Of a stretch of 40,802 nt of DNA, positions 1 through 38,811 are shown in pieces. The DNA comes from Bacilli bacterium (lineage in GTDB: Bacteria; Bacillota_I; Bacilli_A; RFN20; CAG-826), in NCBI GenBank assembly GCA_024695105.1, contig JAILIV010000036.1, forward strand, positions 1-40,802, read 5' to 3'. Position 1 is the stretch's first letter. Each line of letters starts with the position of its first letter. Below the pieces are notes generated by a model. The model was given only the letters and a program-made list of their open reading frames with translations. It was not told where the DNA came from and did no database searches. Made by a program: the position numbers and the translations under genes.

Positions 1-522
1 ACCGTTGACTCCTATCTCGAGAAGAGCGGAGACACCGACTTCAAGAGGGACATCTTCCTCCGTCAGTATGACTACATGCTGCAGACCATGCTCCTCGCCG
101 TCGCCCTCGCCGATGGCAAGGCTTCCGCAGAAGAAATCGAAGCCATCCGCCTGATCGCCAAAAACGGCAGCATCATCAACTTCCTCAACCAAGGCCTCCC
201 CCTCGACGCGGAACCTTGGGAATGGAAGAACTTCACCGAGCAGAGCCCCTACATCGTCGCGCAGTATCAGCTCGACCTCGAGAAGAAGCTCGAGGACATC
301 ATCGACAACTTCAACGAGCTCCTTGTGATCACCGCCATCAACATCGAACAGCCCCACAAGTTCCTCAACACCTTGGGCGAGATCACCCGTAAGATCGAAC
401 AGGGCGTCATCACCGTCGATGGCATCCTCTCCCCCGAGGAAGACGCCGTCATCGAAAAGAAGATCAAGGAAGTCTACAAAGCCTCCCTTAATCGCGTCAT
501 CGAAAAGTTCAACAACAACTAA
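1..522 (+). CDS. TerB-like / DjlA-N-like helical protein, 5' truncated by window start
   Basis: Reading frame is open from base 1 (TVDSYLEKSGDTDFKRD...) through MLQTMLLAVALADGKASAEEIEAIRLIAKN to TAA at 522; acidic 'ADGKASAEEIEAI' helix pattern recalls TerB-like domains. Confidence 0.6.
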   Translation, partial: TVDSYLEKSGDTDFKRDIFLRQYDYMLQTMLLAVALADGKASAEEIEAIRLIAKNGSIINFLNQGLPLDAEPWEWKNFTEQSPYIVAQYQLDLEKKLEDIIDNFNELLVITAINIEQPHKFLNTLGEITRKIEQGVITVDGILSPEEDAVIEKKIKEVYKASLNRVIEKFNNN

Positions 523-640: not shown

Positions 641-2377
641 TCAGTCGTCGTCAGGATCGGCGATCTCGTCGAGTTTCTTCAGCAAGTCGGCGAAGGGATC
701 TTTGTCCCCTTTGCCGCCTTTTCCCTCGGGTTTTTTGGGCTCTTCAGGCTCCTCGACGTCGCTGTCTGGATCCTCGATTTCGATGTCTTCTTCGGGCTCG
801 GGCTCTTTGAAGGCCTTCAAGCCACCGAAGACCTTGTTCGCGAGGTCCTTGTCCATTTTGAGGACGCGCTCGGTCAGGTCGAAGAAATGGTATTCCCCAT
901 CCATCTTCGGGAAAGGCACGGCCTCTTTGGTCAGGAACTGCGTATAACGGGAGATATCCGGCATGAAGGAAACGTAGGGACGGCTGCGGTGCATGAGGAT
1001 AAGGGCTTCCGCGCCGCCTTTGGCGCCCACCACTTTCCGCATGGAGGAAAGCTGCTGATAGGTGATGAGCGGTTCGTTCGAACCATTGCCACGCACGCCC
1101 ACCATGCGCTGGACCTGTTGGATGAGCTGGTCTTCCTTGGTGGAGAGGTATACCCAGTTCAAGCAGTTGGTCTTGATGGTCTCCGCGTCGTCTTTGTACG
1201 TCGCGTGCAGTTGGTTATCGGATTGCACGACCAGGAAGAAGCGCATGTTGCGGCTTCTTGCGGCGGTGATCATCGAAGGCATGTCGGCGATGAAGGGAAG
1301 GTTGGCGAATTCGTCCAACACGAAATTGAGACGGCGGGGCAAGGTGCCACCTTGGCGGAAGGCTTCCTTGACCATCGCGGTGTACACCTGCTTGATGAAA
1401 CTGGTAACGATGAAGTTATAGGTGGAATCTTCGTCCGGAACGATCATGAAGACGGCATGGGGTTTCCCGCCACGGCCGATCGCGTGGATGTCGAAGCTGG
1501 TGTGCGAGGTAAGCGCCATCAGGGAACGCGACGAGGTGAAGGCGGTCACCGAGCCATAGGCGACATCTAAGACGCCCGCCAAGGTCGTGGTCGCGCTTTT
1601 GGTCATGTTCACGGCCGAGAAGAGGTTGTTCTTCAAGGAGCATCCCTCGGGGAGGTCATTGACGAACTGGAGGAGCGTGCGCACGTCCTCGTCGTCATCG
1701 TCAAACCACGAGCTGCTGCTTCCGGTGGGCGATTTGTCCGCGAGTTTGACGCGATCAAGAAGGGTGGACAAGGACCCGGGGTTGCACTCGGAAGGATCCT
1801 TCGCGCCACGGATCATGAGCTCGACCAAGCCGTCGAGGAGTTGGCGCGCGGCGATGGACCAGCTGGGGGATTTGGCGTCCTGCAAACGCGAAGTGATCGC
1901 GTTGACGAACTCGTGGGCCAAGTTCAAGCCGGCTTCCTCTTCGCCGTTATGGAATTGGACATAGGCTTCCTCTAAGGGGTTCCAGCAGTCGCTGTTGGCC
2001 ATGTCGCGGAGGTTGATGACGTTAAGTTCGTATCCCTTTTCCTTTAAGAACCCAGAGGTGCGGGCATAAAGCTCGCCCTTAGGGTCGGCCACGAGCATGC
2101 TCTCGCCCGCAAGGCCCAAGGAGAAGATGGTGGGGAAGATGAGGGTGCGGGATTTCATGGAGCCCGTGGAACCCAAAATGAGGGAATGGTAGTCCTCGGT
2201 GTCGCAATAGATGGTCTTCGTGTCGGAGATCAGGGGCAACCCGGCGGACTTGACGCTGGCGTTGGGGTCGGAGATGTCGACCTTGGTCAACTTGGACTTC
2301 ATCTCCTCTTCGGTGGCGAAGCGGTTCTCAAACTCGCGGTCGCCGACGTAATTGAGGTAACGGTAGTTGTGTTTCAT
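641..2377 (-). CDS. TraG/VirD4-type (type IV coupling protein-like) ATPase without obvious TM helices
   Basis: Motifs YHSLILGSTGSMKSRTLIFPTI, MLVADPKGELY, LNFVLDEFANLPFI (Walker B), FLVVQSDNQL; start at ATG 2377 preceded by GGAGGA; upstream in-frame ATG at 2446 lies within the previous CDS. Confidence 0.85.
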   Translation of the reverse strand: MKHNYRYLNYVGDREFENRFATEEEMKSKLTKVDISDPNASVKSAGLPLISDTKTIYCDTEDYHSLILGSTGSMKSRTLIFPTIFSLGLAGESMLVADPKGELYARTSGFLKEKGYELNVINLRDMANSDCWNPLEEAYVQFHNGEEEAGLNLAHEFVNAITSRLQDAKSPSWSIAARQLLDGLVELMIRGAKDPSECNPGSLSTLLDRVKLADKSPTGSSSSWFDDDDEDVRTLLQFVNDLPEGCSLKNNLFSAVNMTKSATTTLAGVLDVAYGSVTAFTSSRSLMALTSHTSFDIHAIGRGGKPHAVFMIVPDEDSTYNFIVTSFIKQVYTAMVKEAFRQGGTLPRRLNFVLDEFANLPFIADMPSMITAARSRNMRFFLVVQSDNQLHATYKDDAETIKTNCLNWVYLSTKEDQLIQQVQRMVGVRGNGSNEPLITYQQLSSMRKVVGAKGGAEALILMHRSRPYVSFMPDISRYTQFLTKEAVPFPKMDGEYHFFDLTERVLKMDKDLANKVFGGLKAFKEPEPEEDIEIEDPDSDVEEPEEPKKPEGKGGKGDKDPFADLLKKLDEIADPDDD

Positions 2378-2379
2378 GG

Positions 2380-3243
2380 TTAGTCCTCCTCCCCGACGAG
2401 ACCCAACCGGCGGGTCTTCTTCTTGTTTTGGAAAATGCGGGTCCATTCGCCTCCGGGCAAGAAGGAGGCGCTATTCTCCTCGTTGAGGACAAGTCCGACT
2501 TCCTTCTCGGCCTTAAGGGCGCAATAACCCATGTCCAAGGCGAGTTGACGGATGGACTCGATGCCTTCCGAACCAGGGGTATGGAGCACCATTTCGACGG
2601 TCTCGCGCATTTTCTTGCGGAAGCCTTCCTCGAGGGAGAACCCATAGAAGGCGAGGTTGTCTTCCAGTTCCTTTAACCCGGCATCGACGTCTTTATAGGA
2701 CATATGGAGCAGTTGGATGCGCATCGCCAGGTCGAGGCTATCGAAGGCTTTCCTCGAAGGCTCGTCGTTGCCCGAGCGGTCCAAGAAGATGGCCATCGTG
2801 CGGTCATCGATCGTGTCCATGTAAGAAAGGAAGTCGATGAACTTTTTCTCCGACACGGCACCGGGTTTTTCGACCCATTCGGTGATGTCGACGACCAAGA
2901 TGCCGTCATAAGGATGGCTGAAGCGGTTCAGCTCATGCTCAACGGCGTCATAAAGCATTTGGAACGAGGTGAAGTTCGGCTCGTTGGGAGAGGAATACTT
3001 CAGAAAGAAGGAATACACCCTCGTCTCGCTTTCGAAGGCCATGAGCTCCTGGGCTTCCAGGTAGCCCGCCATCGCTTCGAAAAGCTCCTCGAAATCAAAT
3101 CCGTCGTCGGCAATCAGATAGTAATTGGGGAGAGGGACCTTGTTCTCTTTCCCCTTCTGGCGGGAAGCGACGCGTTGCCACTCCTGCCCGATGGCCGCGA
3201 TTTCTTCGTAACCGGGCCGCAGCACAAGTTTTTCAAACTCCAT
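2380..3243 (-). CDS. Uncharacterised protein resembling a degenerate AAA+ ATPase (no P-loop)
   Basis: Single ORF with AGGGGG SD; 'LPNYYLIADDGFDFEELFEAMAGYLEAQ' in the place expected for Walker A and 'YDGILVVDITEWVE...DDRTMAIFLD' in the place of Walker B/sensor 1; stop lies 2 nt before the TraG-like ATG. Confidence 0.5.
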   Translation of the reverse strand: MEFEKLVLRPGYEEIAAIGQEWQRVASRQKGKENKVPLPNYYLIADDGFDFEELFEAMAGYLEAQELMAFESETRVYSFFLKYSSPNEPNFTSFQMLYDAVEHELNRFSHPYDGILVVDITEWVEKPGAVSEKKFIDFLSYMDTIDDRTMAIFLDRSGNDEPSRKAFDSLDLAMRIQLLHMSYKDVDAGLKELEDNLAFYGFSLEEGFRKKMRETVEMVLHTPGSEGIESIRQLALDMGYCALKAEKEVGLVLNEENSASFLPGGEWTRIFQNKKKTRRLGLVGEED

Positions 3244-3331: not shown

Positions 3332-6300
3332 CTATAAAACCAACGCGAGCAACGCCTCCAGCATCACCGAACGGCTTTGTTGGAGTTTCAGCGCCCGGAA
3401 GGGCAAAAGTCGGTTGGAATAATGGCTGGTGAAGCGGTTCTGGTCGTCGACGTCGCGGAACACCCAGGAATCGCAAATGAGGTAACGTACGTCGCGATGG
3501 TGGGCGATGGAGCACAAACGGCTCAATAGCTCCGCCTCATTGACTCCGCCCCGGCGTAACACGTCCGCCTCGTTTTGCAGCGCCTTTAGGAAGAGCCATG
3601 CGTTCACGTAATAACGCTTTTCCTCTTCGCATAGCGCATTCCATTCCGCGTCATATTCGGAAAGGTTCAGTTTCGAATAGGCGGAAGAGGCCTTGGAAAG
3701 GAGGCCCTTGGCTTCCAAAACGGACTTATCGGTAATCGCGTTAGGACCTTTGGCCCAGAAGGACTGCGCGGCCTTGCAAAGGGCGTCGATTTGCGGCGCG
3801 GCGGTGGCAGACAAAGAATGAGGGTGCTTGGCGGGATCGAGTTTCCCTCCGCCCATCGTGAAGGCGAAGAACCGGAACCCTCCCTCGTCGGCCTGGGCCA
3901 CGTGGACGCCACGGTCCATCAAATGGATCCGCAGGAATCCCAACTTGGCTTCGGCTTGGATTTGCTTGGCCTGCTCATGAAGAGGCCCATCGCCTAGGCA
4001 GACGTAGACCGTGCAGCTCTCGGCGGGGAAGGCGTCAGAAGCCAAGATCTTCTTGAACAAGTAGACCAAGCGGCGGAACAAACAGAACGTCTTCTCGTCG
4101 TCTTTCATGGACAAGACGATGTAATCGGGAAGGTTTTTGCGGTTATGGGCAATGGAGTCCACGAACTCGGTGATGAAACCCAATCGGCCAGGGTCTGAGG
4201 CGTTGAACTGGACGTCGGGGAAAGACATGTCGGTCCGTACCGCTTTCGTGCCACCGATCCTTTTCAGCGAATCGCTTAGATTCGTTAACAGTTTCCCGTA
4301 GGAAGTCGTCGTCGTGGAGATGACGCTTTCGCTTTCGAATTCGCGGAGTTTGTCGGTGACGATCGCAAAACTGTGCCGCACACGATATGGGGCGTAATCC
4401 TCGTCACCGTAGATGCTGCAATGGAAGCGGTTGGGCTCCAAGGCGTCTTTCCCGCGCACCTTGTCGTAGGTGTTTACGAAGATCGCCTCGGCGACGGCCT
4501 CGCCCTCCTTCCCAAATCCGAAGCACGTGACGAAGATATCCTTCTTCCCGTCGTCATAGGCGCGGGGGTGGAACACGCTGATGTCCATGGTGGCCTGCTC
4601 GGTGATATTGTGGATCTTGGTCCAGTCCATGGCCACGGAGAACCCTTCCTTGCGGTCGATGGAATCCATGCACAAAGACACCCCAAGGAAGACGTTGAAC
4701 AAGTCATACGCCAAAGTGCCTTTGTCGATGAACCCGGCCGGCAATAGGCAATAATGGCGGCGCAGCCCGTCGTCGCGTTTGGGCGAATAAAGCCATCCGT
4801 CGGCCAAATGGAAACGCATCCAGCGTTGATGTTCCACGCGGGCCAACTTGGCGAAGAAAATGCCGAAGTTCTCACGGTTGTCCCAACGCTTCATCATTTG
4901 GTAGAACGCAGTCCGGAAGCGATACGAAGCCGCGGAAGACACTCGTTTCCATAAGGTATTGCCCCGCCAGGAAGCCAAGGCTTGCGCTTTTTGGTGGGCG
5001 GGAATGCTTTCCCACAGATCGGCTTTGTTCCTAGCGATGTCGCTGGCGCCCCGAGGGACGATGACGCTCTTCACGGCTTTGGGGTTCAAATAGTAAGCAT
5101 GGGCTTCGTCGTTGAACTGGTTGGTCTCCTGGGCGTTGCCATCGGCGACCAATTCATAGACGCGGTTGTAGTTGATCGCGTCGTAGTTCTCGATGATGCG
5201 GTCATATCGATACACGTCCCCATTGTTTCCGATGATGACGATGCGGACGTTGGGGGCGTAAATGAAGTCTTGCTGTTTCTTGGGATTCGCCACGTCGAAA
5301 TCACGGTTGAACCCTTCGACGAGGTTGTTGTTTTTGTCATCCCAGACGTTGACGAACAACGTCACCATGTTCCGTGGCTTGCGTTGGGAAAGAAGCGCGG
5401 CGATGGCGTTAACCACACGTATGGATTCATAGTCATCGCCGGTGGCCACGACGATGTAATCGGGGCAATAGAATTGGCCTGCGCCCGTTTCCCCTGCCCC
5501 ATATTGGTCTTTCTTTTCCTTCCAAAGGGCAGGCCCTTCGCGAAAGAGTTCCGCGAAACCCACTTTCCCAAAGCCACCGTTATGGAAGCAGAAGGCGGGA
5601 AGGGGCATCTCTTGGGCCAAAGCCAGGCGCAATTCCCGAGTGGGCGCGTTGTTGTGCGCGAGGGAATACTGCTTGCAGATGTCATCCAAGGTTTCCTTGG
5701 AGGCGTCCTCATACGTCTTTTGCGGATCATAGCCAAAGGCTTCCGGCGTATAGGAAACGCAAACGGAATAGGGCATTTCCATTTGGAACAAGCCCGCGAT
5801 TTGGGTGAAGCCACGAGGGTCATATACGTCGCAGAAGAAATCCGCGGCCTTGCCTTCGTCGTTGATTTGGGAACTGAAGGAATACAGGGCCTTCGCGATC
5901 GATTGGCCGTTGGTGCCAAAGCCAAGGGACACAACCCACGTGAGGTCTTTGTCCGGGGCCGGCGGGCAATCGCCGTCTGAAGGCGAGGAGTAGATGGCGG
6001 TCTGGGCTTCCGAGGCGATGGAGTCGGCTTCGTTCCACACGTGGATAGAGAACGGCTTGGCGAGCTGCCAGCACGCCTTCTCCCGCGCCAACTTTTCCTT
6101 CTTCAAAGCCTTTGCCGCGCCGATTTTGCCTTGGTCCCCCGACTGGTTCGCCTCCTCAAGCGCGCATGAGGCCATCTTCCACTCATGATGGCGGATGAGG
6201 TATTCGTCGTTGGAAGAAAGGTAGAGTTCACGGAACCGTTTCTCCAGCGAGTTGATTTTGTCTTGGTAGGCTTGGTAATCGATGCGGCGCTTGGTCAAGA

Positions 6301-7855
6301 TGTAGTAGCCGATGTGGGACAAATCGTACCCGTGCCGCAAGTCGGACTTTTTCTTGAACTCCTGAAGGGCGAAGAATTTCTCGTCGGTGACTTTGTCCCC
6401 CCAAGCGTCTTCCAAGCCATGGACGCGAAGGCTGAGGTCACGCTGGTTCTTCAGCCAACGGTAATAGGATTCCTGTTGCTCGTCGATGATGAAAAGCTTC
6501 TCCTCCAACGCGGCGATCTTCTCCTTGATGAAATCGGGGCGGTTGGCGGGGTCGTTGCCCCCGATGCCAGCGAGTTCCTCGATGTCTTTGCGGATCGCCT
6601 CGGCCTCCTTGCCGCGGGAAAGGTATTGCCAATTGCCGGGTTGGCGAAGCTCCAACTCCAAATTCCGCGCCTCGATCTTCTTGGCGATCTTGAGGAAATC
6701 CGTATCACCGGGAGTGCATGCCTCCAGCTGTTTTTCCAACGCTTGGATGTCCTTGCGGATGCACGCCCGATAGGCGCGGAATCCGCGATGGCATTTCGTG
6801 GTCCTGGCCTTCATGTGGTTCAGGCGGTTGTTGATGTCGAGAAGGACGTAATCCATGTTCTCCTCTTCGTTGGGGATGTGGTCGTTATCCGAATCGAAGG
6901 CGAAGACCGTGATGGACGAATATTGCGAGGCCATGCCCGATTTGCTATGGGGCCAAAGTTTCTCGAGGATCGTGTTGGAATCATTGGCGGACACCGACCA
7001 ATAGATGTAGCCATGGGCCATGACCTGGACGCAGTTTTTGTCTTTTCGGTCAAAGGGTTCTAACGCCGAACCGGAGAAAATGATCAACGCGTTGCGGGCT
7101 TTTTCTTGATCGGGGTTAGAAGAGATGGAATCCGCAAGGTTCAAGGTCTCTTCGTTCAAAGCCGTGAAAATATAGATGTCCATCCCCTTGGTACGCAAAA
7201 CGCGTAGCAGCAGGAAAGAGTAGAACTCGTAGGCCAAAGAGGAGCCGATGGCGCTGATGAACACCAGGCCCGCGACCACCGATGTGCCATAGAAGGCACA
7301 GATGAGGAAGATTTGGGAAACGAACTGGGCCCCGTCGGGCAAACCCTCGAACGACAATCCGCCTAACGCGGCATATACGGCGCCAAAGAAGGAAGAGAAG
7401 ACGTCCTTGAACCCCGGATCCATGATGCCTTGGGCGGCCAGATCCGCAGCGGTCGCATTAAAAAGCACCCACGCCTTGAACGCGATGCTAAGCGAAATGG
7501 CAACCGCCACCGTGATCGCCTCACAGCGCAACTTCGCCGTGGCGTGACGCCGCTTGTACACGAGGTAGACGATCATGATGAGCAGATAGAGCAAGGCCAC
7601 GAAGGCGACCGTCAGCAAAATCGCGACGACCCAGCTGGCGACCGGGTGCCAGCGGGAGGAGAGCAAAACCGTGGCCAGCCAATCGGGAAGTTGTTCTACG
7701 TCCGCCGCGAATTGGTTCTCGAGGTTGCCATACCAAAGGAAGAATCCGACCAAAAGCAAAATCGCCGTGACGATGGCGATGAGGAAAGACGAACGGACGG
7801 GCAAATAGAATTTGCGCTCTTTCTTAGGGGAATTGGCGGCAGGCATCGAGCTCAT
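3332..7855 (-). CDS. Large multidomain membrane protein: N-terminal TM/channel-like region, TrkA/RCK-like Rossmann segments, RyR domain
   Basis: Start ATG at 7855 (MSSMPAANSP) with GAGGTG SD; hydrophobic segments in first ~250 aa; glycine motifs VVSLGFGTNGQSIAKAL and FVTCFGFGKEGEAVAEAIF; RyR-like LARVEHQRWMRFHLADGWLYSPKRDDGLRRHYCLLP. Confidence 0.75.
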   Translation of the reverse strand: MSSMPAANSPKKERKFYLPVRSSFLIAIVTAILLLVGFFLWYGNLENQFAADVEQLPDWLATVLLSSRWHPVASWVVAILLTVAFVALLYLLIMIVYLVYKRRHATAKLRCEAITVAVAISLSIAFKAWVLFNATAADLAAQGIMDPGFKDVFSSFFGAVYAALGGLSFEGLPDGAQFVSQIFLICAFYGTSVVAGLVFISAIGSSLAYEFYSFLLLRVLRTKGMDIYIFTALNEETLNLADSISSNPDQEKARNALIIFSGSALEPFDRKDKNCVQVMAHGYIYWSVSANDSNTILEKLWPHSKSGMASQYSSITVFAFDSDNDHIPNEEENMDYVLLDINNRLNHMKARTTKCHRGFRAYRACIRKDIQALEKQLEACTPGDTDFLKIAKKIEARNLELELRQPGNWQYLSRGKEAEAIRKDIEELAGIGGNDPANRPDFIKEKIAALEEKLFIIDEQQESYYRWLKNQRDLSLRVHGLEDAWGDKVTDEKFFALQEFKKKSDLRHGYDLSHIGYYILTKRRIDYQAYQDKINSLEKRFRELYLSSNDEYLIRHHEWKMASCALEEANQSGDQGKIGAAKALKKEKLAREKACWQLAKPFSIHVWNEADSIASEAQTAIYSSPSDGDCPPAPDKDLTWVVSLGFGTNGQSIAKALYSFSSQINDEGKAADFFCDVYDPRGFTQIAGLFQMEMPYSVCVSYTPEAFGYDPQKTYEDASKETLDDICKQYSLAHNNAPTRELRLALAQEMPLPAFCFHNGGFGKVGFAELFREGPALWKEKKDQYGAGETGAGQFYCPDYIVVATGDDYESIRVVNAIAALLSQRKPRNMVTLFVNVWDDKNNNLVEGFNRDFDVANPKKQQDFIYAPNVRIVIIGNNGDVYRYDRIIENYDAINYNRVYELVADGNAQETNQFNDEAHAYYLNPKAVKSVIVPRGASDIARNKADLWESIPAHQKAQALASWRGNTLWKRVSSAASYRFRTAFYQMMKRWDNRENFGIFFAKLARVEHQRWMRFHLADGWLYSPKRDDGLRRHYCLLPAGFIDKGTLAYDLFNVFLGVSLCMDSIDRKEGFSVAMDWTKIHNITEQATMDISVFHPRAYDDGKKDIFVTCFGFGKEGEAVAEAIFVNTYDKVRGKDALEPNRFHCSIYGDEDYAPYRVRHSFAIVTDKLREFESESVISTTTTSYGKLLTNLSDSLKRIGGTKAVRTDMSFPDVQFNASDPGRLGFITEFVDSIAHNRKNLPDYIVLSMKDDEKTFCLFRRLVYLFKKILASDAFPAESCTVYVCLGDGPLHEQAKQIQAEAKLGFLRIHLMDRGVHVAQADEGGFRFFAFTMGGGKLDPAKHPHSLSATAAPQIDALCKAAQSFWAKGPNAITDKSVLEAKGLLSKASSAYSKLNLSEYDAEWNALCEEEKRYYVNAWLFLKALQNEADVLRRGGVNEAELLSRLCSIAHHRDVRYLICDSWVFRDVDDQNRFTSHYSNRLLPFRALKLQQSRSVMLEALLALVL

Positions 7856-7998: not shown

Positions 7999-8565
7999 AT
8001 GCCTGAACTCGAATCTTCTCTTCCGCTACTCTCCGAAGGGCTTGTGGAGGAATTCCAAAACCAACGTAACATCCTCATCACCGGTCCCATCAACTCCGAC
8101 CTTGCCTTAAAGGTGATGATCCTTCTTCGCCATCTCGACAACGAGAGCCATGACCCGATTTACCTTTACATCAACTCCCCGGGTGGCTCGGTTTCCGCGG
8201 GACTTACCATCGTGGACAACATGCGCCTGATCAAATCCCCGGTCCACACCGTCTGCTTCGGCTTGGCCGCCTCGATGGGCGCGGTCATCTTCGCCGCCGG
8301 CGAGAAAGGCCACCGCTACGTCTTGCCTCACGCCGAAGTGATGATCCATCAGCCATGGAGCTCCATCGCCGACGACCTCAAACAAAGCGACCTGGAAATC
8401 ATGTCCAGCCATATGCGTCGCACCCGCGAACGTCTCGAAACCATCTTGGCGGAAGCCTCTGGCAAGACCTTGGAGCAGATGCACGAAGCCTGCGAAAAGG
8501 ACAACTGGCTCAACGCCGAGGAAGCCATCGCGATCGGCTTGGCGGACAAAATCCTCAAGAAGTAA
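7999..8565 (+). CDS. clpP: ATP-dependent Clp protease proteolytic subunit ClpP
   Basis: ITGPINSDLA, YINSPGGSVSAGL, GLAASMGAV (Ser), EVMIHQP (His), EKDNWLNAEEA; SD CAGGGGGAC. Confidence 0.96.
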   Translation: MPELESSLPLLSEGLVEEFQNQRNILITGPINSDLALKVMILLRHLDNESHDPIYLYINSPGGSVSAGLTIVDNMRLIKSPVHTVCFGLAASMGAVIFAAGEKGHRYVLPHAEVMIHQPWSSIADDLKQSDLEIMSSHMRRTRERLETILAEASGKTLEQMHEACEKDNWLNAEEAIAIGLADKILKK

Positions 8566-8567
8566 AA

Positions 8568-9485
8568 ATGAGCCACCCCGCCCTCGCCTCTTTGGAAGAC
8601 ACCCTTTGGGACTTCGTCGCAGGCGAGGACTGCCCCACCTTCTTCGTCCACGGAAACGGCCTCTTGCTACAGGAGGCCTTTCTTTCTGCCCTGACCATCG
8701 CGCATCCCTTATTTGGACGGACTTGCTTCCGTATCGATCAGGAATATGCGGAAGCCTGGAAACCAATCGTCGAACGCTTCGACCTCGCTTCCAAGCAAAG
8801 CCTTGTCACGTTTGAGCTTGCCCCGCTGCAAGAAGAGGAGATACGTGACACGATTCTTCTGACCGACCAAGCCCTTTCCGAGAAAACGATGGCCGTCCCA
8901 AAAGCCATCATCCGCCTTGACGAAGGCGAGCAGGAAGAAGAGACGGAAGAGGAAATGGACGAAGATTACCGCGCCACCGTCGCGTTCATGTCCTTATACG
9001 GAAAAGGCATCGAAGGGTTTACTTTGCCCCAACCGCCCTACCATGTCTTTCCACGCGACTGGCATTACCTAGGGCCTTCGCGCAACATGGGCGCCTATGG
9101 CGTGCTGGAGGACGAGCTTCGACGCGGGCTTGAAAAAGACGATGGCACCTTATGCCCCCAAGAAAGCCACGAAGCGATCCTCAAGGCTTTGCGCGGAGAA
9201 CCAATATCCGGCCCGGCGTTCTATCATGCGCTCCGTAGCTGCTACCGTTCGCCTTGCCTACTTCGCGACATGGCCAGTTACCAGCATGACACCTGGGAGC
9301 TACGGACGCTTGCCTACCACCGCGACCCAACGAGCAAAACCTCCATGTTGGTCCCCTACCCCTTCTTGCTCCAAACCGAGTTAAAGAAAATGGAGGGGCT
9401 ATCGGATGAAGATGCCTTTGGCATGGACATCCTCTACAGCGATTTCCTCATCCCTTTGCTCCATTTACGAAGCTTGCTCTCGTAA
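8568..9485 (+). CDS. Hypothetical protein, translationally adjacent to clpP
   Basis: ATG 2 nt after clpP stop; continuous 305-aa ORF with acidic internal stretch EGEQEEETEEEMDED; no family recognised. Confidence 0.65.
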   Translation: MSHPALASLEDTLWDFVAGEDCPTFFVHGNGLLLQEAFLSALTIAHPLFGRTCFRIDQEYAEAWKPIVERFDLASKQSLVTFELAPLQEEEIRDTILLTDQALSEKTMAVPKAIIRLDEGEQEEETEEEMDEDYRATVAFMSLYGKGIEGFTLPQPPYHVFPRDWHYLGPSRNMGAYGVLEDELRRGLEKDDGTLCPQESHEAILKALRGEPISGPAFYHALRSCYRSPCLLRDMASYQHDTWELRTLAYHRDPTSKTSMLVPYPFLLQTELKKMEGLSDEDAFGMDILYSDFLIPLLHLRSLLS

Positions 9486-10367: not shown

Positions 10368-10396
10368 TGGGTCGGACATTACTCCGGCCCTTTTTT
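10368..10396 (+). terminator. Rho-independent terminator
   Basis: GGGTCGG...CCGGCCC followed by TTTTTT (one G.U pair). Confidence 0.7.
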
Positions 10397-11676
10397 CATT
10401 CTTCAAGAAGATCGGCGATAGATAACGTGATTGGCTCAGGGAAGGACGCTTTCCTTTCATTGCATAACGTCATCACGTGTCCTTCCAAAACGGTAGTTTG
10501 GATGAAATAGCTCTTTCCTTTGTAAACGCATTTCCCATCGGCGAAACGAGAGAAGCCAACCTTAGTGGGCGTGAGAATCCCCTCCCCTTCGCATTTGGCT
10601 AGGGCTTCCTTCGTGGTCCACGCCTTGGCAAAGCTTTCCTTATCCGTGACTTCCTTCGCCTCTTCTTCCGTGAAGGCATGGGGCACCGTGCCCATAGAGC
10701 AACGGGCAATCTCCTCGATATCCAACCCCACCTCATAAGGGGCAGCGTAAAGACCGATGTAATCCCCGCCGTGGGAAAGGCTAAAACAAGGACCACCTTC
10801 TACATATGGTTTCCCTGAAGCGATTAGTGATATGGGCTTGCCGCCCGTGGCTTTCCTTATAAGCAACGTCCCCACGGCGGACCGCGTTTTGTCTTCCAAA
10901 CGAACGTACCGCAACGCCTTTTCCTTTCGCTCCCCCGACAAGACGTCAAATAGACGTTTGGCTTCGGGTAACGCGTCAAATAGACGCACCAAATAAAGGC
11001 AGGGTTGGTTCTTCTTCCCCTTTCCAAGGGCCAATGCGCGAGAACGTTCTAGGCGACGAAGCAAATCATCGGGGTCGTTACGCCCATCCAAGATCATGCA
11101 CACCCAGCTCTTTTTGTTGAGATGGTATCCTGGAAAGACGGTTTTCATGTCCACGTCCTCTGGGTTTCCGCGGAACGCCACGATAGAGCAAACCCCTTCT
11201 TTCGGTTCCCCCACTTTTTCGTAAGGTACCTTCATGAACACCGCATACCATTTACGGTTGTCCTTCCGCCGAATGATTCCGTTTTCATCATCCCAGAGGT
11301 ATTCGATTCCTTCCCCATGATGAGAAAGAAAATGATCCATGAGCAAACCGAATTCCTTACCGACATGGGGCAAAAGGGAATAGCAGCGCTCGCAGATATC
11401 CTTTAAGCGTTCCTTCACCTCATCCCGAATGGAAATGAGGTATTCCCCATGCGCGGATGGCATTTTGTAAAGGTTGTATTCGTCACCCGTCTCATTATCG
11501 ATGAGCCGAGTGTCCATCGTTCCATCGAAATCGATGCTTACGTGCAACGAAAACGTTCCGCCCTGAATGGGAAATTCATGCACGTATGAATCGTTTTCCG
11601 AATGAAAACCATAATCCAGAAGGCGATCGAAAAGAGGTAATGCCCCTTGGATGATTCCTTCTTCGAACTCGGACAT
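10396..11676 (-). CDS. Fusion protein: MmcQ/YjbR-type domain + 4'-phosphopantetheinyl transferase (Sfp-like)
   Basis: N-terminal 'YLWDDENGIIRRKDNRKWYAVFMKVPYEKVG...PGYHLNKKSWVCMILDG' MmcQ/YjbR pattern; C-terminal 'EVGLDIEEIAR...FTEEEAKEVTDKESFAKAWTTKEALAKCEGEGI' PPTase pattern in one continuous frame. Confidence 0.8.
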   Translation of the reverse strand: MSEFEEGIIQGALPLFDRLLDYGFHSENDSYVHEFPIQGGTFSLHVSIDFDGTMDTRLIDNETGDEYNLYKMPSAHGEYLISIRDEVKERLKDICERCYSLLPHVGKEFGLLMDHFLSHHGEGIEYLWDDENGIIRRKDNRKWYAVFMKVPYEKVGEPKEGVCSIVAFRGNPEDVDMKTVFPGYHLNKKSWVCMILDGRNDPDDLLRRLERSRALALGKGKKNQPCLYLVRLFDALPEAKRLFDVLSGERKEKALRYVRLEDKTRSAVGTLLIRKATGGKPISLIASGKPYVEGGPCFSLSHGGDYIGLYAAPYEVGLDIEEIARCSMGTVPHAFTEEEAKEVTDKESFAKAWTTKEALAKCEGEGILTPTKVGFSRFADGKCVYKGKSYFIQTTVLEGHVMTLCNERKASFPEPITLSIADLLEE

Positions 11677-19489: not shown

Positions 19490-21172
19490 TTATGGCCTTG
19501 CATCGTCCAAAGCCTGGACGAACACCTTCTCGAATTCCTTGGGTAGATTAAGGCGCTCATCAAATTGGACGACGGATTCATAACTCTTTAAGTCGAAGGC
19601 CTCGGGAGGGTCTTTTTCCTCCTCCTTCGCATCCTCCAACGCCTTGTTAACTAAGGAATTGATATAGGAAACGGAATCCTTCTTGGCTGCTTGCTGATCG
19701 ACCTCTTCTATAAGAACCGTATAGTTCATTTCTTCTAGTTCGTGATAGACTGCACCGTCCGTGGCCCGCGATTCGATGCCTTGTAAACTGGAAAGATCTT
19801 TGCCTTCGAAGCCTTTGATCTCCTTCATATCTTCTGCGAGGTCCTTGCTGTACCACGCCCGGGGACGGGCGAGCCGGAACCCCATAAACGTCATCACGCT
19901 CGTGCGTTCGTAGGGATTGTAAAAGGTGAATATCTTGGTGCAACCATCGAATCTTCGGAAAGCGAAGCGAATCTCGCGGTAGGCATCGGTTTCCTTCCCC
20001 ATCAATCTTTTCTTCATGTCCTTGGAGAATGTGTCATAGGAAACCAACTGTTTGATTTCCGAGGACAGGGAATCATAGATTTCCTTGATTTCTTTGGCGT
20101 AAGAAGGGATTAGGTAACGGAACAAAGCGACGTCTTTCTTGGGCTGGAGATAGTCGTCGATCGAAAGAATGTACCTGCTCTTGATTTGAATCTGGGGCGA
20201 AAGAATTTCCTTTTTGCCTTCCCACTTCACGGAAACGGAGTACATGGACGGATTGGCTTTGTCCTTGTTGATCAGGAATTTGGGCAAAGCTACTTGCCCT
20301 TCTTGCTTCTGCTGCGCTTTTTCTTGCTTCTTGATCCCACTTTTCTTCTTTCTTATCGCCGCCACTTGCTCTCTGAACTCCGCGGAATACAAGGTGCTTT
20401 TCGGAATCGACAGTTTAATGGAGGAAGATCCAAAAGAAGCATAGGCGGCGATCTCAGGATCCGCCTTAAGCTCTTCGCTTATATAACGATAGTTGGATGG
20501 GCTATCTTGCATGGCCATGAGAACAATGTCACGGTCATCTCGCATCGATTTGTCCATGCACAAAAACAAAGATGGTTTTTTGGAAAGGAGCAGCGACACA
20601 AAATCCTTTCTTTTTAAAAGGGGCGTGTCGTGAAGATGAGTGAAATATTGCGCGGACACCATGGAGTCAGCGGCCGCTTCCATTAATTCAGGATCCTTCA
20701 ATAAGGATTCAGACGCAAATTGGAAGGAACATCCAAATTGTTCGATGGCCTTCAATACCACTTGCCTATCGTTTTTCAACCGATCGGACACAAACTCCAA
20801 GGCACGGCCTTCCTTTCCTAATAACTCAAGGACCAATGCCTTATCGTCGCGAAAGCGGGCGGGTGCATATTGTAGGGCAATCGGATTGTTCCTTACCGCG
20901 TTTAAGACAAAGACTTCGTCGGATAAAAGGGAATCGCTGGCGATGGAAAGGGCAAGTCCGCTAATCGCGGCGGCTTTTCGCACGAAGTCGTCGTTATTCC
21001 TTACTTTTTCGGGGACGAATTTAGCTAAATGGGCAGCCATATAAGGCTTAGCCTTAATGGCTTTCAAAAGAAAGTCTTCGTCTTCCAACTTCTTCTTCGG
21101 AAAGGATTTAGGAAGGGGCGTCCCGCCATTGCAGTAATACGCCAGATGGTTGATGCATGCTTCGTCTGTCAT
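19490..21172 (-). CDS. DUF4116-repeat protein with uncharacterised C-terminal domain
   Basis: Repeated 'dkeVVLkAIeqfG.sFqFASesLkdDpelm' units (VRNNPIALQYAPARFRDDKALVLELLGKEGRALEFVSDRLKNDRQVVLKAIEQFGCSFQFASESLLKDPEL); extended -10 TGATATAAT upstream. Confidence 0.75.
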   Translation of the reverse strand: MTDEACINHLAYYCNGGTPLPKSFPKKKLEDEDFLLKAIKAKPYMAAHLAKFVPEKVRNNDDFVRKAAAISGLALSIASDSLLSDEVFVLNAVRNNPIALQYAPARFRDDKALVLELLGKEGRALEFVSDRLKNDRQVVLKAIEQFGCSFQFASESLLKDPELMEAAADSMVSAQYFTHLHDTPLLKRKDFVSLLLSKKPSLFLCMDKSMRDDRDIVLMAMQDSPSNYRYISEELKADPEIAAYASFGSSSIKLSIPKSTLYSAEFREQVAAIRKKKSGIKKQEKAQQKQEGQVALPKFLINKDKANPSMYSVSVKWEGKKEILSPQIQIKSRYILSIDDYLQPKKDVALFRYLIPSYAKEIKEIYDSLSSEIKQLVSYDTFSKDMKKRLMGKETDAYREIRFAFRRFDGCTKIFTFYNPYERTSVMTFMGFRLARPRAWYSKDLAEDMKEIKGFEGKDLSSLQGIESRATDGAVYHELEEMNYTVLIEEVDQQAAKKDSVSYINSLVNKALEDAKEEEKDPPEAFDLKSYESVVQFDERLNLPKEFEKVFVQALDDARP

Positions 21173-27417: not shown

Positions 27418-27915
27418 ATGACCAAAACCATTTACTTGGCAGGCGGATGTTTCTGGGGCGTCCAGGCCTATTTCAAATTGCTTAAGGGCGTGGAAAGCAC
27501 CCAAGTCGGATACGCCAACGGTACCACCGCCTTCCCCACGTACGAGGACCTAAAATCCGGAAAGGCCGACCACGCGGAAACCGTGAAGGTCGATTACGAC
27601 CCGGATATCATTTCGCTTCAAGACCTCATCGGCCACTACCTTCGCTTCGTCGACCCTTATGCGATCGACCGTCAAGGACACGACGTCGGCCACCAATACC
27701 GGGCGGGCATCTATTACACCGACTTGCTCGACGCCGTGGACATTGAAGTCTACCTCAGCGAACGTTTGGGGAAGGGGCACCATATCGAACTCGCCATGAT
27801 GCGCAACTTCTTCCCCGCGGAAGCCTACCACCAAGACTATCTGGACAAGAATCCCGGTGGCTATTGCCACGTGGATCTAAACCTTGTTAAACCTAACGAA
27901 AGAAAAAAACCATGA
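27418..27915 (+). CDS. msrA: Peptide-methionine (S)-S-oxide reductase MsrA
   Basis: YLAGGCFWGVQAYF active-site motif, VGYANGTT, DPYAIDRQGHDVGHQYRAGIYY, AEAYHQDYLDKNPGGYCH; alternative ATG at 27409. Confidence 0.95.
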   Translation: MTKTIYLAGGCFWGVQAYFKLLKGVESTQVGYANGTTAFPTYEDLKSGKADHAETVKVDYDPDIISLQDLIGHYLRFVDPYAIDRQGHDVGHQYRAGIYYTDLLDAVDIEVYLSERLGKGHHIELAMMRNFFPAEAYHQDYLDKNPGGYCHVDLNLVKPNERKKP

Positions 27916-29066
27916 AACACGAAATCATCGACGGAAGAATCATCTTTCATCCCAAGGGGGCCATTACCTCCACGACCGCCCCGGAAGTGGAACGAGACAT
28001 CGAGAAAACCCTTCAAGGCCAAAAAATTGAGGCCATCGACCTCGACCTAGAGGACGTCAACTATGTTTCCTCGGCGGGGCTTCGCGTCATCTTAAAGTAC
28101 AAGAAGCTCTATCCCGACACCCGGGCCATCAACGTGACCCCCGAGGTGTATGACGTCTTGGAAATGACGGGATTCACCACGATGATGGATGTCCGTAGGC
28201 AACTTTTGGAAGTCAGCGTGGAAGGCGCCAAACTCATCGGGGAAGGCTTCTTCTCCCTGGTCTACCGTCTCGACCACGACACCATCATCAAAGTGTTCCG
28301 CAACGAAGTCCGCATCGAGGAGGTCGAACGCGAATTAAAGCTTGCCAAACAAGCCTTCGTCTTGGGAATCCCCACCGCCATTTCCTATGACGTGGTGCAC
28401 GTCGGGGACCGTCTTGGCGTACGCTTTGAGATGCTCGACTGCGCTTCCCTCCGCGATTGCTTCCGCGACCATCCGGAAGACCACGAAACCCTCGTGCGGA
28501 AATACGCCGAATTGCTCACGACGATCAACACCACCACCACACTAGACCCCAATTTGCCCGATGCACGTGTCTTATGGCTAACCAAGGCCGATGCCTGCGC
28601 CCCCTTCCTTTCCAAAGAGGAGGCCAAAAAACTCAAAGGGCTTATCGAAAGCGTGGAAGACCGTGACACCTTCGTCCATGGCGACTGCCACTTCAAAAAT
28701 ATCATGGTCCAAAACGGCGAACTATTGCTCATCGACATGGACACGCTATCCAAAGGACACCCCATTTTCGAGCTGGCCGCCATCTACGCCACCTACATCG
28801 CGTTCGAGGAGGCTACCCCTGGCAATAACCTTAACTTCCTTGGGATCGATTCGCCTCAGGTGACCACAATCTTCCACGACGTCCTCGCCCACTACTTCGG
28901 GAAGTTCGACGAAACCATCTACGCCAAAATCGCCCTGGTTTCCTATACCCACATGATTTGGTGGAACCAAGTCAATGACCCAACCAACCAAAATAGGCAT
29001 GACGTGTGCCTGCAAAACCTGCGCAAGCGCTTGGCCCAAGTGTCCGATTTGGATATCGGAAAATAA
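27912..29066 (+). CDS. STAS domain fused to APH-like phosphotransferase/kinase
   Basis: STAS: LDLEDVNYVSSAGLRVILKYKK; kinase: GEGFFSLVYRLDHDTIIKVFR, FVHGDCHFKNIMVQNGELLLIDMDT; ATGA overlap with msrA. Confidence 0.85.
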   Translation: MKHEIIDGRIIFHPKGAITSTTAPEVERDIEKTLQGQKIEAIDLDLEDVNYVSSAGLRVILKYKKLYPDTRAINVTPEVYDVLEMTGFTTMMDVRRQLLEVSVEGAKLIGEGFFSLVYRLDHDTIIKVFRNEVRIEEVERELKLAKQAFVLGIPTAISYDVVHVGDRLGVRFEMLDCASLRDCFRDHPEDHETLVRKYAELLTTINTTTTLDPNLPDARVLWLTKADACAPFLSKEEAKKLKGLIESVEDRDTFVHGDCHFKNIMVQNGELLLIDMDTLSKGHPIFELAAIYATYIAFEEATPGNNLNFLGIDSPQVTTIFHDVLAHYFGKFDETIYAKIALVSYTHMIWWNQVNDPTNQNRHDVCLQNLRKRLAQVSDLDIGK

Positions 29067-33804: not shown

Positions 33805-33833
33805 ATTATATACCCGCCTTTACATGAAATCAA
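33805..33833 (-). promoter_or_regulatory. Sigma70-type promoter for tRNA-Pro/tRNA-Arg, -35 embedded in polC 3' end
   Basis: Minus strand TTGATT - 17 nt - TATAAT; -35 at 33828-33833 within the last codons of polC, whose TAA is 33820-33822. Confidence 0.75.
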
Positions 33834-36800
33834 AGATACTTCCCTGATTTTTCTCACTTAGGCCAGATAAAACGCCGAGCTCGTCCAATTTCTTCAGGTG
33901 GGCGCTACTGAGTTTGCTCGCGCGATCCAAAAGATCCTGTTTGGAAATAAAGGGTCTCTTCTTCCCGTCATAGCCGACCTCTTCCCGAGCTTCGCAAATG
34001 GATTGGGCCGCGGACAAGCCAAGGCCATCGATGACGGAGAAAGGAGGGATAAGCGCACCGCGCTCATGGTCTACCAAGAACATCTTCGCGTCGGAACGGT
34101 ACAAATCTAGCGGCAAGAACTTATAACCACGCTGCAACATCTCCACCGCGACCAGAAGCGTCTTATATTGGTCGGTTTCCTTCGTGGAAAGAGGGTTGTC
34201 GCGTGACTTCATTCTCGGCCTCCACTCCTGGATGCGGGCGATGACGGAATCCTCGCCCTCGATCATGGTCTTGATGTCCCAGTCCTTCGCGCGGATGGAG
34301 AAGTAAACGGCATAGAACTCCAAAGGATAATACAATTTGAAATACGCCACGCGGACGGCCATCGTAACGTAGGCGGTCGCGTGCCCACGCGGGAAGAGGT
34401 AAGCGATCTTGTTACAGGAATCGATATAGAAATCAGGGACCCCGTGACTGCGCATTTCCTGCTCTTGTTCCGGACGGAGCTTCTTACCTTTACGCACGGC
34501 CTCCATGATTTTGAAGGACAAAGAGGAATCCATGCCCATCGAAATAAGGTAGGTCATGATCTCGTCACGGCAACCGATGATCTCATTGATCGTCTTACCT
34601 TGTTTGGTGACGAGGTCTTCCGCGTTGCCCGCCCACACGTTCGTGCCGTGGGCCAAGCCAGAAATGATGATTAGGTCGTTGAACGTCTTCGGGCGCAGCG
34701 TGGAAAGCATCTGCATACCTTGGTTGGTACCGAATTCGGGCAAAGCGGCCGCGCCAGTGTCATGTTCCAAGAAGTTTCGGTGCATCTTGAGTTCCCGTAC
34801 GGAGGAGAACAAAGAAAGAACCTTGGGATCGTTCATCGGGATCGACTCGATATCCACCCCCGTGAGGTCACGGTAATAACGCATGGCCATCGGGTCGACG
34901 TGGCCTAAAATGTCGAGTTTTAAAATCTCGTCGTGCATCGCGCGGAAGTCGAAATGGGTGGTCAGCCAGTCGGAGTTATCGTCATCCGCGGGGTATTGCA
35001 CCGCCGTGAAGTCATAAACGTCCATATCCGCGGGGACGACGACGATGCCACCCGGGTGACGGCCCGTAGTACGTTTGACGCCTTGACAGTGCGACGCCAA
35101 ATAGGCGATATACGTAGAGCTGATTTGCGAAGGATCGCGGCCGATTTCCTCAAAATAGCCACGCACGAAACCGAAGGCGGTTTTGTCCGCGACCGTTTCG
35201 ATCGTGCCGCAGCGGAAGACATTGTTCGCACCGAGCAAGTCTTTGCAATAATTGTGCGCACGCTTCTGCGATTCATCCTCGAAGTTTAAGTCGATGTCCG
35301 GAACCTTATCGGCATGGAATCCAAGGAAGGTCTCAAACGGAATGTTCTGGCCGTTGGACTCCAAAGGTGCGCCACACTTAGGGCATACCTTGTTGGGAAG
35401 GTCGAAGCCCGAACGATAGATGGAGGTGTCCTCAAAATGCAGATAATGGCATTTGGGGCAATGGTAATGGGCGGGAAGGGGGTTGACCTCCGTGATCTCC
35501 GCCATCGTCGCGGCGAAAGAAGAACCGACGGAACCACGTGAACCCACGATGAAGCGCTCGGGCTCTTGGTTGGCACGTTTGATGAGGCAATGGGCGATGT
35601 AATAGGTGACGGCGTAGCCCGAACCGATGATACCGCTTAGCTCACGCTGCATGCGATCCCAGGCAAAGTCGATGGCCTTTTTGACTTCAGGGTCGTCATC
35701 CCCAAATAGATAGTCGTAGTTTTTGTGGAAATTGGTCTCGCACAGATTGCGGATGATGGTCTCCGAATTCGGCAAATTCACGTTGGGCGTGTGCGTGATT
35801 TCGGAAACGATTTCGATATCGTCCTCGATTTGGTCCGCAATGAGGTTGGAGTTGGTGACGACGAATTCCTGCGCCTCAGCCTCGGTACACCACTCACGGA
35901 AAGCATCAAGCATCTCACGGGTCGAACGGAAATGCTGGTCCGGATTATCGAAATGCGGAACTTTCTTACGGGCGGGCGGGTAAAGCGGGTGCGTACCATT
36001 GCCGATACCTTTCGCGGTGATCATGATGTCGCGGTAGATTTTGTCGGAAGGGTCCACGTAATGGGCGTCCCCGGTGGCGACCACCTTCTTACCGGCGACG
36101 CGGGCGGCATCGACGATGTCGCGGAGATAGCTGATCAACCGCTCCTTGCTGGCGATTCGGCCCATGTTCAGCAAATAGGAATAGTTCTCCAAGGGTTGGA
36201 TCTCGATGAAGTCATAGAATTCCATCGCCTTGACCAAATCCGCTTGGTTGCGCGTGCTGGCGATCTCGAAGATTTCGCCATTAAAGCACGCCGAGCCAAT
36301 GAGGAAGTTCTCACGGTACTTGGCAATCAACTCCCGTGGAGTTCGCGGCACGCGGCCGATATATTTGATAAGCGACTGCGTCAGGACGTAGAACAGGTCA
36401 TGAATGCCCTTCTTATTTTTCGCGTAGACCGTGACATGGTACTCCCTAAGGTGACGGCAGAACTGGCGGTAATCCTCCATGGCCTTGGCGTATTCTTTGG
36501 CCTTGGGGTCGTTCGGATCGTTAGGGTCGCCTTGTTCCATCACGCCCTCGGGATCGGGAATGGAAAGATGTTCCAAATCGCAATGGCGGAGCGACGGGTT
36601 CTTTTGGCTTAGGCGCGAAAGGATTTCCACCCAGCCTTCGCTTAATGCGGTGGCGTCGTATTCGGCGCGGTGGGCGGATTCAACGTCATAAACGTCGGCA
36701 AGACCCAACCTGCGGAGCAAAGCGCCTTCGTTATGGGCGCCAGCGGCGGGAAAAAGGTAATGGGACAAAGCCAAGGTATCGATGACGGGGTTGGTAATGG

Positions 36801-38811
36801 GAGGCAAACCACGCTGTTCTAACACGGCATTAAGGAAGCCAACGTCGAATGTCGCGTTATGGGCGACCAAAACGCAATCCCCCATGAACTCCAGGATCTG
36901 GGGTAGCACTTCGTCTAACGTCGGCGCTTTCAGCAATTCGGCTTCCTCAATCTTGTTAATTGCGAGGGCCTCCCTGGCTTGGGATAGGTCGATCTGTGGG
37001 TTGATCAGCGTGCCAAAAGACCGCACAACCCTCCCGTTTTCCATAATAACGCCACCAAATTCGATTAATTTGTCGTGACGGGAGGATAGACCGGTGGTCT
37101 CGGTATCGAACACGCAATAACGGGCTTTGTCCAATGCGATTTCGCTGGGGTTAAGGATGTAACGCTGGGCGATGTCGAACATGTACATCTCGCACCCATA
37201 CAGAATCTTCAAGGGCTTCTCGTCCGTATCCTTTCCGGAGAGACTATCCGCGTGGGCGGCGCGTGCGGCCTGGGCCGCGGGGAAGGATTGGACGCCGCCA
37301 TGGTCGCAAAGTCCAATGGCTTTCATGCCCATCGCCCGGGCGGCGTCATAGAAATCACCGAAGGATGCGATGCCATCCATCGTGGACATGTTCGTGTGAA
37401 GGTGGAGCTCCACGCGTTTCACCTCTTCCTCGTCCTTGCGGAAAACCTTCTTGGGAAGTTTGTTCATGAAATGGACGATGATGACTTTCTGGTGGGTGAA
37501 CTTATCCACGTCGATCGCGCCGCGGATCCGATAACGATCCCCCACTTTGATGCCTTCGACTTCCGCTTTTTTGATCCTGCCTTCAAAGGCGCGAAGGTTG
37601 ACGGCGCCCGTGGCGTCGCCCATGGAGAAAGAATTGGACGCGTGGCCATTACGCCCAAGGCTTGGCTTCACTTGGAACACCTCACCCTCAAAATCCACGT
37701 TGCATAAGGAAATCTCGAAGATCTCGCTGATGCGCTTCAACGGGCGATAATTGCCTTTGCTCCACACGCGTTCGCGGTTTTCCTGTTCCTTCTTCCATTC
37801 CATGCGGCGCTGGTGCTGATCGAACATGGCATCCTCAGTCTGGGTCCGGTAATAGATGGCCTCTTCTTCAATGAGGCGCGCGGCTTCTTCCTCGTCGGGA
37901 ATGAAAACCTCTTCTTCGGGCTCGGAAGGTTCTGCTTCTTTCTCTGTTTCGTCCTCTTCCTCGGATTCGTCCTCGTCTTCCGGTTCGGGCTCGTTATCCT
38001 CTTCGGGCTCACAGGGCTCTCCGTCTTCTTCCGGCCCTTCGCTTAAATCGGGTTCGGGTTCTTCGACGACGGGCTCGGGTTCTTCGACGACGGGTTCTTC
38101 TTCCACCGCTTCGGGTTCTTTCTGCGTCACCTCTTCCACGAGTTCCGGTTCAACGGATGCGACGGGCTCTTCTTCTTGGACGGGTTTTTCCTCCGCGTCC
38201 AAATCAGACGCCATGTTCAGCGCCTCGTCCATCGACTCCTCTTCCTCGGTCAAACCTTTCGCGCCGATAGAAGGATCCATGATCGGCTCAGGTTGGGGTT
38301 CGGGCTCAGGTTCGGGCTCAGGCTCAGGTTGGGGTTCCGGCTCTTTTTCCGGCGCGGCCTCCAAACCAAAGCCATCCTCTTCCAAAATGGAAAAGGGATA
38401 GTTCACGAATTTCAGCAAGTCGCGGAAATCCTTCAGCGCCCGTTGGTTTTTGTCTTTGCTTTCTTGACTCGGATAAACGACGGAAAGCACATATGGGGCT
38501 TTGCTCGCCAAGGATAGACCCGGGACGTCTTGGTACCGCATGAAATACCAGTTGTAAAACAAATCCGCCGCATCTTCCGCGGTGGGGTCCACCCCATAGG
38601 AAAAGCGCAAGGTATAGGGGTAACGGATCGTCGACAAAGCCTGAATGAACTCATCCAGCAAAGGGTATTCCCATGGGGAGGATTTCTCCATGGCCATGTC
38701 CACTTGGTCTTGGTTATAAGGGTTACGGGCAATCAGGATGAAGCTCAAATCAAAACGTTCGACGTCCTCAATGCCGATGGAAGAAAGAAACCGTTGGATT
38801 TTGCTGGCCAT
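33820..38811 (-). CDS. polC: DNA polymerase III alpha subunit, PolC type, with E/P-rich N-terminal insertion
   Basis: [46 protein letters not shown] (PHP), [24 protein letters not shown] (DnaQ exonuclease), [110 protein letters not shown]. Confidence 0.97.
   Translation of the reverse strand: [1663 protein letters not shown]
37880..38350 (-). repeat. Low-complexity Glu/Pro/Asp-rich coding region in polC, with short tandem repeats
   Basis: [20 protein letters not shown] (38284-38342) and tandem [16 protein letters not shown]; hexamer-like ggctcaggttcg repeats in DNA. Confidence 0.85.

Follow-up and report, generated by a model that had tools for sequence, protein, structure and literature searches.

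What is a very large membrane protein carrying a ryanodine receptor (RyR) domain doing in the genome of a gut bacterium of the Bacilli, and with which cellular process is it associated? The question is raised by a gene on the minus strand of contig JAILIV010000036.1 (assembly GCA_024695105.1), whose 40,802 nucleotides make up the stretch analyzed here, called the window throughout. A preliminary description, made from the letters of the sequence, had proposed that the gene encodes a nucleotide- or ligand-gated ion channel with TrkA/RCK-like Rossmann segments. Our comparison of the protein and of its genomic neighborhood with those of related genomes leads to a broader reading, in which we place about even confidence: the protein is a sensor/effector for a signal of the ADP-ribose type, probably channel-like, that controls a proteolytic cassette built around VirD4 and ClpP, likely in phage defense or stress. 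It is the membership in the ClpP/VirD4 cassette that moves the likely role of the protein from a stand-alone channel to the sensor/effector of a larger system.

The open reading frame (ORF) runs without interruption from 7936 to 3332 and encodes 1534 aa, and all motifs quoted in the preliminary description were found in its translation. Residue numbers refer to this frame, in which the ATG at 7855 is Met28. This ATG is probably the true start of the gene, since a GAGGTG lies 8 nt upstream of it and a promoter-like match is found upstream at 7926-7899. The protein begins with a membrane part and continues with a conserved block, a variable stretch, a Rossmann block, the RyR domain, a second Rossmann block and a decayed RyR copy (Table 1). 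The C-terminal half is a second Rossmann-RyR copy, re-matched by the family profile in both the window protein and its L010 homolog and absent from the homolog in L009 (genome G024, 1007 aa); neither the degenerate RyR copy nor the operon context had been noted before. The family is divergent, five of the eight aligned homologs having 21-28% identity to the window protein, and its profile matches 28 of the 281 genomes of the order. The 470-aa proteins that it matched weakly were set aside as hydrophobic noise, the case that was checked being a Na+/H+ exchanger. A tblastn search of plasmids gave no match.

By profile comparison the window protein carries a true RyR homolog. A profile of eight relatives found a ryanodine receptor 1 chimera in the PDB with an E value of 1.2e-15, together with animal RyR1-3 and the RyR-like Bacteroides protein 3nrt, which bears out the RyR consensus that had been recognized by eye. 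A HMMER comparison with PF02026 had been suggested as a check, and its outcome was mixed: the single sequence reached 18.6 bits in the Pfam scan, under the cut-off of 27.4 (22.4 bits in the genome scan), while the eight-relative profile did reach the RyR structures. The RyR domains of the phage protein RyDEP bind 2'cADPR and 3'cADPR, forms of cyclic ADP-ribose (cADPR), through H75, W78, H100 and D117, which are said to be conserved in animal RyR domains (PMC13232231, a 2026 preprint). The corresponding four residues of the window protein have the identical spacing of 0/3/25/42; none of the four varies in the eight relatives, nor do the H, W and H across 19 relatives. Both 3nrt and RyDEP share the RyR fold with the window protein by sequence profile, as well as the positions of these residues, but they are small soluble proteins, whereas the window protein is membrane-bound, has three Rossmann blocks in addition and carries the RyR domain twice, the second time in decayed form; RyDEP, moreover, is a phage anti-defense enzyme or sponge, whereas the window gene is a chromosomal host gene. 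Animal ryanodine receptors, too, are membrane proteins in which adenine-type ligands bind to an RyR repeat domain; they differ in their length of about 5000 aa, in the kind of pore and in having many further domains. The Pfam scan of the window protein saw only the RyR domain and no MIR or RIH domain, and our comparisons gave no sign of common descent with the animal receptors outside the RyR domain. The treatment of nucleotide-centric conflict systems by Burroughs et al. in 2015 reportedly covers RyR domains.

The two glycine-motif Rossmann starts that had been named earlier both held up. The block opened by GFGTNGQ matched a small profile built from the E. coli proteins TrkA, Kch and KefC in hhalign (75%, E value 2.5e-5, over 110 residues), where the ordinary Rossmann enzyme AroE, used as a single sequence, reached 0.7%; G672 of this block is invariant across 19 relatives, and GFGKEGE opens the second copy of the same unit. 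A resemblance of Rossmann block 2 to TrkA_N/RCK is thus supported by hhalign, although the Pfam scan, the other half of the profile check that had been suggested, found no TrkA_N/RCK match for the window protein. The remaining Rossmann-like start, MDIYIFTALNEETLNLADSI, opens block 1, which is indeed conserved and alpha/beta-looking, but neither the PDB nor the RCK profile gave a detectable match to it.

Hydropathy places four transmembrane (TM) segments at residues 49-67, 104-122, 141-159 and 209-227, and the quoted SFFGAVYAALGGLSFEGL lies between the third and the fourth, in agreement with the pore-like element that had been described between two helices. Six residues of the TM block are invariant in the eight homologs, and four of these (G192, F196, E197 and G198) fall within a seven-residue stretch of the loop, which reads GGLSFEGL (hypergeometric p 2e-5 for the clustering); this is the pattern expected of a functional loop. 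Because this TM-loop-TM unit stands directly before a Rossmann-like block and contains an invariant loop motif, it is plausible that the membrane part forms an ion-conducting pore. The overall layout is like that of the RCK-gated channels MthK, Kch, BK and plant CASTOR/DMI1, where a TM-loop-TM unit is likewise followed by tandem Rossmann blocks (for the tandem RCK domains of CASTOR, see PMC6697748). The window protein differs from these channels in that block 1 is unrecognizable as RCK, an RyR domain is added, the TVGYG selectivity filter of K+ channels is absent from the loop and a profile search of the pore region against solved channel structures and E. coli Kch detected zero similarity. 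Of the gated channel proposed at the outset, the membrane-embedded, RyR/RCK-like protein of a ligand- or nucleotide-binding type is supported, and the pore is plausible.

This lack of channel similarity would also be expected if the TM part were only a tether, and the protein a non-conducting, membrane-anchored sensor that recruits or releases the VirD4-ClpP module on binding its ligand. Relatives from other genera retain the TM-Rossmann-RyR arrangement and have lost the FEG loop, and in some cassettes a separate gene encodes an RyR protein of about 85-111 aa, as such a sensor would allow. An anchor, however, needs no loop motif, yet within the clade of the window no other part of the membrane block is conserved as strongly as this one; we regard the tether as a possibility of some standing, albeit a doubtful one.

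Evidence for the cassette comes from the distribution of ClpP. Matches to ClpP were obtained in 36 of the 221 genomes of the GTDB family, which consists of small Bacilli (17 of the 119 good genomes), and the stretches around these ClpP genes were profile-scanned for neighbors. ClpP adjoins a VirD4-like gene in 22 genomes (the window, L009, L010, L013, L035/L175, L036, L089, L132-L138, L140, L141, L142, L144, L145, L147, L148 and L161; in L135 only the VirD4 tail is present, at a contig edge), and we conclude from these scans that ClpP and VirD4 are the core of the cassette. The remaining ClpP genes are four housekeeping-looking copies in one genus (L139, L146, L170 and L171), one whose contig is truncated (L107), and matches that score low or look phage-like. 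That the window ClpP is a mere housekeeping copy was rejected, since most genomes of the family are without ClpP. A gene with an RyR domain was found within the fetched stretch in 11 of the 22 genomes (the window, L009, L010, L013, where it occurs twice, L035/L175, L036, L089, L136, L140, L142 and L148). The order clpP-RyR-Q287-VirD4, Q287 being the family of the 287-aa companion protein, is identical in the window, in L010/L002 (a goat-rumen Bacilli metagenome-assembled genome, RGIG3500) and in L009, where the RyR proteins have 36% (L010/L002) and 40% (L009) identity to that of the window. Gene order varies between cassettes, and they are therefore not one inherited block copied a single time. 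No ClpP/VirD4/RyR system was described in the papers searched, subscription papers being mostly outside the search, and the cassette appears to be undescribed.

The same distribution bears on the view that the protein is a stand-alone regulator of K+ or other cations, under RCK-type osmotic or cyclic di-AMP-type control, whose neighbors are accidental. The RCK-like Rossmann block and a TM-loop-TM layout as in the RCK-gated Kch and BK would suit such a regulator, but the same neighbors recur beside homologs of low identity and in differing gene orders, and the gene is accessory, being present in a minority of the genomes of the same genus; we consider this view unlikely.

The products of the neighboring genes give an indication of how the cassette could work. 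The window ClpP has intact catalytic Ser/His/Asp motifs (AASMGA, MIHQP and CEKDN), as do the proteases of ClpXP, ClpAP and ClpCP. The VirD4-like protein, whose gene likely starts immediately past the Q287 stop, keeps its Walker motifs (GSTGSMKS and DPKGEL), as in the VirD4/TraG coupling proteins of type IV secretion systems, and the model that it matches best is that of the conjugal VirD4-like CD1115 family; unlike in those systems, hydropathy found no N-terminal TM segment, and a search for the partner VirB4 (NF045971) in five cassette genomes including that of the window (G000, G018, G431, G314 and G177) gave none. Wherever enough sequence is available, the cassette also encodes a companion protein, either of the Q287 family (the window, L009, L010, L132, L133, L141, L142, L145, L147 and L148) or of the N306 family (L013, L036, L089, L134, L136, L137 and L175), and profile scans detected no similarity between the two. 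No Pfam or PDB family matched Q287; by eye it could be taken for a decayed AAA+ protein with VDITEWV replacing Walker B, which these searches do not support and which we do not claim. Both families end in a short motif, for example RLGLVG, KMGLVG, RIGLI, RIGFIL, KLGFKV or KIGFKI, and the 529- and 536-aa companions of L138 and L140 end in YGF. The relaxed pattern [LIMVFY]G[FL] occurs in the last ten residues of 10/10 Q287 and 7/7 N306 proteins versus 14 of the 333 other ORFs of the same loci, counts that use related sequences and hence make p-values too small. Clp ATPases dock on ClpP through an IGF, LGF or IGL tripeptide, which the companion tail resembles. In ClpXP, ClpAP and ClpCP the partner is a Clp ATPase, whereas the recurring partner here is a VirD4-like ATPase with a tail-bearing companion; the single Clp ATPase found in G000, and likewise in G018, has Clp domains without an [ILV]G[FL] loop. 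The tails, the loop-less Clp ATPase, the anchor-less VirD4 and the absence of VirB4 together suggest that VirD4, companion and ClpP form an unfoldase-adaptor-protease module. That a decayed conjugative element supplied the VirD4-like gene, the cassette being mobile-element cargo without joint function, would fit the CD1115 match and the patchy distribution, but is improbable given the Walker motifs retained on a protein without membrane anchor, the lack of a VirB4 match in the five cassette genomes searched and the constant pairing of ClpP and companion with the VirD4-like gene in 22 genomes.

The signal itself is suggested by TIR genes near RyR relatives. The cassette of G439 (L035 and L175) is flanked by a TIR-NTPase and a TIR-methyltransferase, a TIR-HD gene adjoins another RyR protein in L034, and a TIR-NTPase lies near an RyR protein in L088; these associations fit a ligand of the ADP-ribose type. 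Thoeris and other systems with TIR/NAD-derived signals resemble these loci in their TIR proteins and in the cADPR-type signals that RyR domains bind; binding of such immune signals by RyR domains has recently been shown, mainly in small phage proteins. The ClpP/VirD4 core, by contrast, is foreign to Thoeris. Two observations may be added on these loci. A second RyR family (L034:5959-8187, L080, L087 and L088) has about 690-757 aa, no TM segments and a C-terminus that is SLOG-like by eye, with the TIR genes of L034 and L088 nearby. L035:3310-7538 is a cluster of a TIR-NTPase, a stand-alone RyR protein, TerB-like proteins and a metallo-beta-lactamase weakly similar to the anti-Pycsar protein Apyc1.

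In the sensor/effector reading, the RyR/Rossmann protein would be the membrane-bound component of a ClpP-centered multi-gene cassette. The signal bound by its RyR domain would contain adenine and would most likely belong to the ADP-ribose kind, as ADP-ribose itself or as one of the cADPR isomers. The RCK-like Rossmann blocks would relay this binding to the four-helix membrane part, where ions would probably pass through a pore whose GG-x-x-FEG loop is unusual. An adaptor, which is Q287 in the window and N306 in other cassettes, would link the soluble VirD4-like ring ATPase to ClpP, on which it would dock by its C-terminal [LIMFY]G[FL] tail in place of ClpX or ClpC, and the cassette as a whole would most likely be a phage-defense or stress system. 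We put forward only tentatively the full form of this proposal, a signal-controlled proteolysis in which the VirD4-type ATPase and adaptor replace the Clp ATPases and an RCK-gated RyR channel senses the ADP-ribose-type signal.

Several points weigh against the sensor/effector reading, besides the missing pore similarity and the relatedness of the tail sequences mentioned above. In the window, L009 and L010 ClpP is divergent from the RyR gene and not co-operonic with it. In half of the cassettes (11/22) the fetched stretch contains no RyR gene, and the RyR protein is therefore not an obligatory part; most of the genomes are incomplete metagenome assemblies, in which some absences may be gaps. 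No TIR or other NAD-cyclizing enzyme was found among the scanned ORFs of the window, the rest of the genome not having been searched, and PADLOC gave weak matches only. AlphaFold models of the N-terminal part and of Rossmann 2-RyR, a check suggested beforehand, were obtained from only two input sequences each, and their mean predicted local distance difference test (pLDDT) values of 44.8 and 35.1 are too poor for judging the fold.

If the full form of the proposal is true, the cassette would contain a bacterial counterpart of cADPR-ryanodine receptor signaling. The combination of RyR pocket, RCK-like blocks and pore-like loop in one bacterial membrane protein would make the long-disputed link between cADPR and the ryanodine receptor testable in a simple system. 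ClpP with a VirD4-like ATPase and unrelated companions sharing a docking-like tail would likewise be a new design of regulated protease, and a concrete example of a repurposed conjugation motor.

Table 1. Features of the RyR/Rossmann gene and of its neighborhood (positions in the window, residues in the 1534-aa frame).
Feature	Position	Strand	Details
TerB-like protein	76..522	+	Contig end, 5' end probably cut; convergent with VirD4-like gene; PF05099 4.7e-5
VirD4/TraG-type ATPase	641..2377	-	Walker A GSTGSMKS; without N-terminal membrane anchor; PF02534 8e-35, NF045973 244 bits
287-aa companion (Q287 family)	2380..3243	-	C-terminal ...RRLGLVGEED, proposed ClpP-docking tail
RyR/Rossmann membrane protein	3332..7855	-	1507 aa from ATG 7855; homologs L010 (1535 aa), L009 (1007 aa)
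Degenerate second RyR-like end	3335..3520 (approximate)	-	Reads IAHHRDVRYLICDSW, homolog reads LARLEHQRYVRSLIADSW; alignment
Rossmann block 3	4049..4573	-	GFGKEGE; second copy of Rossmann-RyR unit; E 2.3e-9, L010 homolog 9e-18
RyR domain	4667..4855	-	Residues 1028-1090 with H1036, W1039, H1061, D1078; profile and ligand-residue spacing
Rossmann block 2	5147..5944	-	Residues 665-930; GFGTNGQ; TrkA_N/RCK-like; profile comparison
Rossmann-like block 1	6821..7183	-	Residues 252-372; without glycine motif; directly after last TM segment; conserved in eight homologs
Pore-like loop	7340..7411	-	Residues 176-199; invariant G192-x3-F196-E197-G198; between TM segments 3 and 4
ClpP protease	7999..8565	+	Divergent from RyR gene; PF00574 1.2e-57, 195 bits
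305-aa protein	8568..9485	+	Downstream of clpP

The 305-aa protein matched no Pfam family; it has a homolog in the same position in L010 (E value 6e-76), and part of the 1192-aa protein that adjoins ClpP in L132/L133 is likewise related to it. TerB-like genes also adjoin the cassette in L010, L035, L036 and L089. L013 and other cassettes contain two ClpP paralogs adjoining each other, and the L013 copy at 5131-5697 is without the catalytic Ser and His (FANGYAAL and INFEQP), a type that resembles the inactive ClpR subunits known elsewhere. Farther away, the window encodes a PolC-type DNA polymerase III alpha subunit with exonuclease and PHP domains, ordinary in Bacilli (33820-38811, minus strand), a YjbR-like domain, under its cut-off, fused to a phosphopantetheinyl transferase (10396-11676, minus strand), a 560-aa protein with six DUF4116 repeats (19490-21172, minus strand) and a STAS domain fused to an APH-type kinase (27912-29066, plus strand).

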